Below, in pieces: positions 5,203-30,826 of a DNA stretch of 33,040 nt. The DNA comes from Reyranella sp. (lineage in GTDB: Bacteria > Pseudomonadota > Alphaproteobacteria > Reyranellales > Reyranellaceae): contig JAIETA010000069.1 of the NCBI GenBank assembly GCA_019745575.1, positions 1 to 33,040 of the forward strand, read 5' to 3'. Made by a program: the position numbers and the translations under genes. Positions within the stretch are counted from its first letter, which is position 1. Each line of letters begins with the position of its first letter. The notes below the pieces were generated by a model that did not search any database, was not told the origin of the DNA, and saw only the letters and a program-made list of their open reading frames with translations.

Positions 5203-5236
5203 ACAAAAAAAGCCCCGCCTGCCGGCGGGGCTTTTC
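5203..5236. terminator. Rho-independent, probably bidirectional terminator between convergent dctM and dctP1
   Basis: aaaaaaAGCCCCGCCtgccGGCGGGGCTtttctctt: GC hairpin flanked by an A-tract on one side and a T-rich tract on the other. Confidence 0.85.
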
Positions 5237-23276: not shown

Positions 23277-24476
23277 TCACTCCCGGATCACATCGCCGAT
23301 CAGCTTGAAGCCGGCACCGTCGAACTGCTGCAGGCGCAGCGCCTTGTAGGGCCGGTAGTCGGTCGGGCTGGTGTCGAGCGTCACGCCCGGCAGGGTGAGC
23401 GGCGTGGTGTAGCCTTTCAGGCTGGCCGCCTGGCGCATCAGGTTCTCGCGCGTGAGTTCGTCGCCGCAGCGACGCAGCAGGTCGGCGACGATCATGCCGT
23501 AGCTGTAGCCCGCCGACACGAAGGAGTCGTTGGCATTGAGTTCGGGCACCCACTTCCTGGCCCAGGCGAGATAGGCCTTCATGCCGGCATCGTCGTCCCA
23601 CGACGGATCGCCCGGGCTCTTGGCGTTGGCAGCGGTGATGACGCCCTTGGCCGCCTCGGCGCCGGCCGGCCGCAGCACGCCCGGCACCGACGACGAGCCG
23701 ACCGGCAGGTACATTTGCGGTTTCCAGCCGAGCTCGGCGGCTTTGCGCATCGCCTGGGTGGCGTGCTTGCCGGTCGCCGCGATGAAGAAGGCGTCGGCAT
23801 TCGACGCGCGAAGCTGGATGATCTGCGAATCGACCGTGGGATCGGTGGTCTCGTAGGTGACCTCGCTCACGATCTGCGCCGCCTTCGGGCCGAGCCCATG
23901 ACGGAAGCCCTCGACGTAGTCCTTGCCGAAATCGTCGTTCTGCCGCAGCACGGCGATGCGCGCGTTCGGCATCGACGACAGGATGTGGCGGGCGTAGACG
24001 GCGCCTTCGGTGTCGTAGGCGATCATGCCCATCATCGTCCAGGGATAGGTCTTGGGCTCGTTCCAGGCGGACGCGCCCGACAGGATCAGGAGCTGCGGCA
24101 CCTTCTTCTGGTTGAGGTAGCGATGGATGGCGCGATTGGTCGGCGTGCCGATGGTGTTGACGATGGCCAGCACGTTGTCGCGCTCGACGAGCTGGCGGGT
24201 GCCCTCCATGGTCTTGGGCGGGCTGTAGCCGTCGTCGAGCGACAGCAGCGTCACCTTGCGGCCGTTGATGCCGCCCTGCTCCTCGTTCAGCGACTTGAAG
24301 TAGGCGATTTCGGCCTTGCCGACGCCCGACAGCATCGACAGCGGCCCGCTGTAGGGCATGGTCTGGCCGAGCCGGATTTCGCTGTCGGACGCACCGGGGT
24401 CGTACTTCTTCTGGGCGAACGCCGGCGCCGCCGCGATCGCACCGGCAGCCACGAGGACGGTGAAGAGCGTCTTCAT
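23277..24476 (-). CDS. ABC transporter substrate-binding protein (branched-chain amino acid/aromatic-type, periplasmic binding fold I)
   Basis: MKTLFTVLVAAGAIAAAPAFAQ signal; EIRLGQTMPYSGPLSMLSGVGKAEIAYFKSLNEEQGGINGRKVTLLSLDDGYSPPKTMEGTRQLVE. Confidence 0.92.
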   Translation of the reverse strand: MKTLFTVLVAAGAIAAAPAFAQKKYDPGASDSEIRLGQTMPYSGPLSMLSGVGKAEIAYFKSLNEEQGGINGRKVTLLSLDDGYSPPKTMEGTRQLVERDNVLAIVNTIGTPTNRAIHRYLNQKKVPQLLILSGASAWNEPKTYPWTMMGMIAYDTEGAVYARHILSSMPNARIAVLRQNDDFGKDYVEGFRHGLGPKAAQIVSEVTYETTDPTVDSQIIQLRASNADAFFIAATGKHATQAMRKAAELGWKPQMYLPVGSSSVPGVLRPAGAEAAKGVITAANAKSPGDPSWDDDAGMKAYLAWARKWVPELNANDSFVSAGYSYGMIVADLLRRCGDELTRENLMRQAASLKGYTTPLTLPGVTLDTSPTDYRPYKALRLQQFDGAGFKLIGDVIRE

Positions 24477-25114
24477 CTGGCCTTTCCTCCCTTGCTCTTG
24501 TTGCTCATCGCTCCCCTGAACATCAGCAGACCATGGAAGCCGGCAAGCGCCTTGCGGTCGGGGCCGTGTCCCAGCATGCCCGCCTTGGCGAGCATGACGA
24601 TGCCATGAGTGCCGGCCCACAGCGACCAGCCAAACAGCACCGGATCGACATCGATCAGCCCTTCTGAGGCCATGTCCTCGGCCTGGCGGGTAATGAAGGT
24701 TCGGGCACGCCGCGCCGCCTCGGCAAGATCGGGGTGCTCATCGCCGATCGGCTGATCGATTTCGAACATGATCCGATAGTCGTGGGGACGTTCGAAGGCG
24801 AACCGCAGGTAGGCGTCGCCGACCTGCCGTGCGCGATCCAAGGCACCGTCGCCTTTGGCGACGGCGGCCTCCAGGGCGTCGGCAAACCGCGTGAAAGCCT
24901 GGGCGCGGACCGTCGCCAGGATGTCGGCCTTGTCCTTGAAGTAGCGGTATGGAGTCTTGGGGCTGCAGCCCAGGGCCTCGGCGAGCTGGCGCATGGTGAC
25001 GCCTTCGTAGCCGAACCGGGCAAAGCGCTCCGTCGCGACCCGGCAAAGCTCGGCGCGGAAGTCGGCGATGTCCTTGTCGGTCAGATACCGCGGCACGTCA
25101 GTCTTTCCATACAC
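24473..25114 (-). CDS. TetR/AcrR family transcriptional regulator
   Basis: N-terminal HTH FARFGYEGVTMRQLAEALGCSPKTPYRYFKDKADIL; GTG start; stop overlaps downstream SBP start. Confidence 0.92.
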   Translation of the reverse strand: MYGKTDVPRYLTDKDIADFRAELCRVATERFARFGYEGVTMRQLAEALGCSPKTPYRYFKDKADILATVRAQAFTRFADALEAAVAKGDGALDRARQVGDAYLRFAFERPHDYRIMFEIDQPIGDEHPDLAEAARRARTFITRQAEDMASEGLIDVDPVLFGWSLWAGTHGIVMLAKAGMLGHGPDRKALAGFHGLLMFRGAMSNKSKGGKAR

Positions 25115-25122
25115 ACTGTGTA
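25110..25122. promoter_or_regulatory. Candidate TetR autoregulatory operator palindrome
   Basis: TACACAcTGTGTA perfect 6+1+6 palindrome at the 5' end of the TetR gene. Confidence 0.45.
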
Positions 25123-25154: not shown

Positions 25155-25283
25155 CCTCCCTGCGCAAAGCGCGGGGAGGTGTCGGCGTCATACGCCGACG
25201 GAGGGGTCATGAGTCACGTGCCGGACTCTTGACCCCTCCGCCCGCGAAGACGCGGGCACCTCCCCTCGTATGACGAGGGGAGG
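25155..25283. repeat. Palindromic multi-hairpin intergenic element (REP/MITE-like)
   Basis: Five consecutive stem-loops: 25155-25179 (11 bp, one G-U), 25181-25199 (8 bp), 25200-25239 (15 of 16 bp), 25240-25257 (7 bp), 25259-25283 (11 bp), arranged symmetrically A-B-C-B'-A'. Confidence 0.85.
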
Positions 25284-25291
25284 AAAAAAAC

Positions 25292-26464
<1,173 letters not shown>

Positions 26465-30741: not shown

Positions 30742-30826
30742 TGGTGCGGCCAAGAAGACTCGAACTTCCACGCCTCGCGGCACTAGCACCTCAAGCTAGC
30801 GCGTCTACCAATTCCGCCATGGCCGC
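30742..30826 (-). tRNA. tRNA-Leu (anticodon GAG)
   Basis: GCGGCCATGGCGGAATTGGTAGACGCGCTAGCTTGAGGTGCTAGTGCCGCGAGGCGTGGAAGTTCGAGTCTTCTTGGCCGCACCA: 7-bp acceptor stem, anticodon loop TTGAGGT, long variable arm, GTTCGAGTC T-loop, encoded CCA. Confidence 0.97.

Follow-up and report, generated by a model that had tools for sequence, protein, structure and literature searches.

A 129-bp palindromic element of Reyranella sp. was found to consist of two inverted units separated by a short spacer, and to be one copy of a repeat family that is dispersed through its own genome and its genus, and is present or absent at orthologous sites. Relatives of the element hold, between the same ends, a gene for a DUF559 protein, and the clades of this protein track the type of unit end. 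The reading that we favour, with a probability of roughly 0.62, is that the element is a gene-less, non-autonomous derivative of a DUF559 mobile element, the nuclease of which would mobilise the repeats in trans; mobilisation by DUF559 and all the biochemical steps are inferred.

The palindromic element and its dispersed copies

The element occupies positions 25155–25283 (no strand assigned) of the window, i.e. the whole 33,040-nt stretch of DNA that was analysed, and has the arrangement A-B-C-B'-A'. Its left unit (25155–25209, + strand) comprised hairpin A (CCTCCCTGCGC-AAA-GCGCGGGGAGG, 25155–25179, + strand), a TG, hairpin B (GTCGGCGT-CAT-ACGCCGAC, 25181–25199, + strand), which lies within the second loop of this triplex-type unit, and a third tract GGAGGGGTCA (25200–25209, + strand). 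The right unit (25230–25283, − strand) was reversed, with its third tract at 25230–25239, hairpin B' at 25240–25257 and hairpin A' at 25259–25283. Between them was a 20-nt spacer (25210–25229, no strand assigned), the equivalent place of which is occupied by the DUF559 gene in gene-bearing relatives. On the + strand the element folded at −111.1 kcal/mol versus a mean of −62.1 for shuffled sequences (z −12.3), giving exactly five hairpins, and the − strand fold had a z of −10.2 against shuffles. The five hairpins, which had been predicted from sequence alone, thus held as written. The pattern CCTCCCN{4,30}GGGAGG occurred twice in the window, both times inside the element, against 0.13 expected. 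The element is real and far removed from what chance would give, and it exists in more than one copy. An Rfam search of the window (4227 families, gathering threshold) gave no match at the element, the only match in the window being a tRNA at 30745–30826. On inspection of the sequence, a GTAG tag was absent from either strand of 25155–25283 and an unpaired terminal CGTC tag was absent from the element, CGTC being present solely inside the hairpin B tips.

Each half of the element is a ~55-nt unit of hairpin A (C[CT]TCCC…GGGGA[AG]G), TG, hairpin B and GGAGGGGTCA, in which the A foot GGGGAGG, read backwards, gives the third tract GGAGGGG. From the sequence we infer that this mirroring of the A foot is the signature of an intrastrand-triplex (PIT/BoxC/TM) repeat; triplex folding itself is also an inference. 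Both the GGAGGGG/GGGGAGG mirror and the DUF559-bearing form had been missed by the original prediction. The right unit was the sole strict intrastrand-triplex match in the whole window, and the left unit, which otherwise fitted the pattern, was missed by the strict scan because of one T mismatch in its A stem. Among the copies a GGAGG foot was accompanied by a GGAGG tract in 304 of 309 cases, and a GGAAG foot by GATGG or GAAGG in 20 of 20, never by GGAGG (304/5/0/20 as a foot/third-tract covariation table); since the GGAAG-foot variant may be one lineage, the Fisher value should not be taken as a probability.

The third tract of the left unit is also the left arm of what had been described as a central hairpin C, and this part of the original prediction was refined: hairpin C is the junction at which two inverted unit ends meet. 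In some copies, including the GGAAG-foot variants, its pairing was broken (GATGGGGTC versus GACCCCTCC) and the internal match of each half was intact; the match within the half is therefore the one that is kept. Neighbouring units faced each other through their C ends in 151 distinct pairs, mostly with spacers of 20–27 nt, and A-facing pairs and tandem arrangements were rarer. Hairpin B had 178 distinct tips and 65 distinct stem arms, with stems of 5.4 pairs on average versus 2.6 when the 3' halves were swapped. The proposed compensatory evolution of the stem tips was thus borne out in part, the tips varying yet staying paired; a set of hairpin tips and half-unit types recurred across the copies, suggesting that ready-made hairpins might have been exchanged in addition to point-by-point compensation.

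The element is intergenic, lying just past the stop codon of an ivd-like acyl-CoA dehydrogenase gene (25292–26464, − strand); the next gene downstream encodes a tetR-family regulator (24473–25114, − strand), the true start of which may be a GTG near 25096. The A-run at 25284–25290 becomes, on the ivd-transcribing strand, a run of T's that precedes the hairpins, and for this reason it is not a normal terminator; the earlier statement that the T-tract sits on the wrong side for one was correct.

A blastn search with the element gave 79 matches at about 45 distinct places in its own assembly (4.9 Mb, 364 contigs, 90.7% complete). Many of these copies were at contig ends and hence undercounted, and the true copy number is probably higher. 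When folded, the copies had a common five-hairpin layout and differing stem tips. A covariance model (R1) built from 17 copies was used for detection only; the structure chosen for it by RNAalifold had an alternative inner pairing, because the hairpin tips were misaligned, and was not adopted. With this model the family was detected in all 61 Reyranella genomes searched, and matches elsewhere in the class were few and weak. In a scan of named contigs most of the hits were Reyranella records (Reyranella massiliensis, Reyranella aquatilis and Enhydrobacter aerosaccus among them), and some of the contigs from other taxa may be mis-binned or chance matches. A single-copy curiosity, which would have refuted the original prediction, is rejected by the ~45 places in its own genome and the 61/61 congeners.

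To the left and right of the element, the tetR and ivd flanks, when joined with the element removed, matched uninterrupted in 29 congeners. The tetR and ivd matches were 5–20 bp apart in close relatives versus about 150 bp in the element's own genome, the only one among the genomes sampled in which the insertion at this site was seen. Eight of 16 other copies of this genome had at least one uninterrupted orthologous site in a congener. A REP/MITE-like mobile family, as had been proposed, is supported by the dispersed copies with conserved pairing and by the empty sites in 29 congeners; target duplications, which had been named as further support for it, were not found. None was visible at the window site, where the relatives were at 80–92% identity and exact ends could not be fixed.

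A DUF559 gene between the same ends

In three copies (L197, L253 and L196, the last masked by N) the C arms were about 410–430 nt apart. L197 and L253 contained an ORF of ~115 aa in the space between the inverted units, and the L197 ORF matched Pfam DUF559 at 8.5e-41. DUF559 was found in 47 of the 61 Reyranella genomes, at 1–9 copies or fragments each; the search gave no match in the other 14, all of which carried the repeats. A single-contig, 99% complete genome (G075) had 55 model matches, both strands counted, and no DUF559 match, and here the repeats persist without a resident DUF559 gene. Nor was DUF559 matched in E. coli (control genome), a species with triplex repeats (PMC4666352).

Among the 30 best Reyranella DUF559 loci, 13 had a window-type unit pointing inward on both sides (relaxed pattern), including the single DUF559 copy of the element's own genome (L292 = G000:C172, gene at complement of 123–473), and most of the others were flanked by sister unit types. 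An inverted repeat across the two flanks (score ≥18) was detected at 27 of 30 DUF559 loci of the genus and 17 of 29 of the class, against none of 223 shifted intervals in DUF559 loci and none of 400 in the window. A strict triplex scan of 87 DUF559 genes, drawn from genus, class and phylum samples (Pseudomonadota), found an inward unit on one side or both of 74, with 34 of these having units on both sides; in shifted intervals the figures were 18/420 and 0/420, respectively. Coding sequence was commoner in these control intervals than in true gene flanks, a bias that favours the contrast. Inward triplex units were found at none of 30 Y1-transposase loci of the genus, even though these were tested with wider flanks. 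Outside Reyranella, units were often on one side only of DUF559. The DUF559 protein tree tracked the unit end type with 5 changes (minimum 4, shuffled mean 11.9), and none of 200 shuffles was as low.

Five of five gene-bearing elements tested by joining their flanks were missing at the orthologous sites of several congeners, and at these sites the unit pair was missing along with the DUF559 gene. One intermediate copy (L219) had a recognisable remnant of the gene. In the spacers of gene-less copies the word CAGTC was enriched (20 of 136 versus 6.4 shuffled) but longer words from the gene ends were rare, and the idea that these spacers are clear DUF559 remnants is only weakly supported.

At three orthologous sites (L384, L387 and L403) a lone hairpin A was present in one species where another held a DUF559 element; it looks like a deletion scar. 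Hairpin A as a target-site duplication was rejected, the A and A' of gene-bearing copies matching as inverted, not direct, repeats. At three other loci (L290, L293 and L294) the DUF559 frame continued into the flanking repeat, giving tails DPPPRPSPSGGG or PHLTSPPGGEEH.

A solved relative of the DUF559 protein was 3HRL (E 1.8e-28). An AlphaFold model of the L197 protein, built on a three-sequence alignment (mean pLDDT 76.8), matched the homing endonuclease I-Bth0305I as well as 3HRL, and to a lesser degree E. coli Vsr; from this model DUF559 is predicted to be a nuclease of the Vsr/I-Bth0305I fold. Residues invariant in the three aligned sequences included E16, D45, E56, D58 and H62, as expected of an active PD-(D/E)XK-type nuclease; activity is inferred. 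The DUF559 protein VsrA of Caulobacter provokes a DNA-damage response upon loss of a cytosine methylase, and has been interpreted as a likely enzyme of mismatch repair (PMC12907096).

Proposed mode of spread, rival explanations and known systems

In the mechanism that we propose, each half of the element is an intrastrand-triplex-type (PIT/BoxC/TM) unit with an extra hairpin in its second loop, and the two inverted units are the ends of a transposon-like element, the full-length form of which carries one gene, for the ~115-aa DUF559 nuclease. The window copy is without the gene, with just the ends and the 20-nt spacer remaining, and the nuclease would most likely be supplied in trans, e.g. from the contig C172 copy of its own genome. 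The nuclease would recognise the folded unit ends and cut or nick the DNA there, and repair or strand transfer would then put a copy into a new intergenic site. Against mobilisation by DUF559 are the absence of a target duplication or exact ends, the 14 of 61 genomes having the repeats without a DUF559 match, the triplex repeats of E. coli, also without such a match, the one-sided units outside Reyranella, and the rarity of longer gene-end words in the spacers of gene-less copies. A bolder reading, slightly less likely than not, is that DUF559 represents a class of bacterial mobile element in which a Vsr/homing-type nuclease mobilises DNA bounded by inverted triplex units, and that non-autonomous and decayed copies of this element make up the widespread orphan PIT/BoxC/TM repeats of Pseudomonadota.

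The main rival, which we rate as unlikely but possible, makes DUF559 a homing-type parasite: it would insert into the spacer between triplex units that were already paired, and the pairs would have spread in some other way. This view is favoured by the inclusion of a homing endonuclease among the closest folds, by the many gene-less pairs and by the genomes that have pairs but no DUF559. Such a parasite would be expected to leave the pair behind, whereas the orthologous sites of gene-bearing copies lacked the pair too; this does not exclude it. The tracking of end type by DUF559 clades also counts against it, although homing would fit that as well. In a scenario that we consider improbable, the units, as triplex or hairpin DNA, would be hot spots for replication slippage and recombination; copying errors or gene conversion would have spread them, and DUF559 genes would be passengers trapped between them. 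In its support, genome instability in E. coli has been associated with triplex repeats (PMC4666352), the copies show shuffling of half-unit types and of hairpin tips, and the lone A hairpins resemble deletion scars; however, the capture of passengers leaves unexplained why a single gene family has units beside it in 74 of 87 cases, why the Y1 loci have none, and why clade and end type go together.

Two further explanations have less in their favour. A host RNA or terminator serving ivd or tetR is suggested by very stable intergenic hairpins directly past the ivd stop codon, but there was no Rfam match, the junction was empty in 29 congeners, the T-tract was on the wrong side, and earlier work, as reported in PMC4666352, saw neither promoter nor terminator activity in PIT repeats; we regard it as very improbable. 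The pair of inverted palindromic units around a short spacer is the REPIN layout, and a RAYT (Y1 tyrosine transposase) could then be what moves the element, but no Y1_Tnp match was obtained in the element's own genome, none of 30 Y1 loci of the genus had a unit, and there was no GTAG tag, leaving almost no room for this explanation.

The studied triplex repeat is TM_ECO of E. coli, earlier called PIT or BoxC, with the structure CCCTCTCCC-loop-GGGAGAGGG-TTA/CCG-GGGTGAGGG (Holder et al. 2015, PMC4666352). The Reyranella repeats resemble it in having a pyrimidine stem, a purine stem and a mirror-image purine tract on one strand (A may be T), and in being intergenic, of many copies and sometimes in inverted pairs. 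TM_ECO has stems of 9 nt and just 3 nt (TTA or CCG) in its second loop, whereas the second loop of the window unit is the variable hairpin B of 18–19 nt, and the strict TM_ECO definition is not met. In the literature consulted PIT/BoxC/TM repeats are described as orphans that lack a mobility gene, and the main survey of triplex repeats never found mobility functions around them (PMC4666352), whereas the Reyranella ends bracket DUF559 genes. REPs and REPINs with RAYTs are likewise inverted palindromic doublets with a short spacer, dispersed, intergenic and associated with an enzyme family (PMC3116915, PMC3733652); unlike them, the window family has no GTAG tag or linked Y1 transposase, and its enzyme gene lies between the ends and is of another fold. 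The CGTC-tagged REPs of alphaproteobacteria, from the same class, are head-to-head dimers and reportedly lack a dedicated transposase (PMC3733652), but the window element is without their unpaired terminal tag. With the DUF559/Vsr-like nucleases (3HRL, Caulobacter VsrA and I-Bth0305I) the gene-bearing form shares Pfam family and fold; VsrA differs in being described as a likely mismatch-repair enzyme and not as part of a mobile element (PMC12907096). Sinorhizobium RIME and A-B-C mosaic repeats, and other MITEs, are also mosaics of palindromes in alphaproteobacterial intergenic DNA, a likeness drawn without sequence comparison.

Triplex repeats and DUF559 nucleases were each already known. Their linkage was not found in the open-access literature searched, mostly by titles and abstracts; subscription papers and preprints were outside the search, so it may have been described elsewhere. 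Hundreds of bacterial genomes are known to contain intrastrand-triplex repeats, with neither an enzyme nor a route of spread assigned to them, and the linkage provides a concrete, testable candidate. If DUF559 mobilisation is true, 'Vsr-like' DUF559 genes, including that of Caulobacter VsrA, would become parts or descendants of selfish elements, and the REPIN/RAYT layout would recur in a second system that uses a different enzyme fold.

Other repeats in the copies and at the junction

Five copies of the element's own genome (L008, L009, L016, L017 and L018) were nested in a larger element of ~194–238 bp with outer terminal repeats TA-GAGTCTTTCCGAC…GTCGGAAAGACTC-TA, the TA being a target duplication as in IS630/Tc1-type MITEs. 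The outer repeat occurred 39 times versus 5 in a reversed control, and L051 had the same outer repeats with a different inside. The sequence AGTCTTTCC at 25100 of the window was considered as a remnant of this outer terminal repeat and rejected, being present in the empty sites of relatives. At contig ends of the same genome (L020, L022, L026, L027 and L292), hairpin A tips were interrupted at CTAG beside the contig end, and the interrupting sequences recurred between contigs, as if an insertion sequence favoured the hairpin tip. Small extra hairpins such as GCGCCTTCAGAGGCGC were nested in loops or stems of the element in L012, L026, L032, L034 and L042.

At 25110–25122 of the window, upstream of tetR, there is a palindrome TACACACTGTGTA that is kept in near-identical form in congeners and is likely to be the operator of the tetR-family regulator. 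A perfect 12-bp stem AAAAGCCCCGCCTGCCGGCGGGGCTTTT at 5208–5235 is likely a two-way terminator. Congeners carried other long palindromes (GGAGCGCGGGCC… and GGGAGCGCGCCACTCC…; the 1301–1500 region of L102, and L095, L162 and L184), both at the same ivd–tetR junction and elsewhere, which belong to a different repeat family from the window element.
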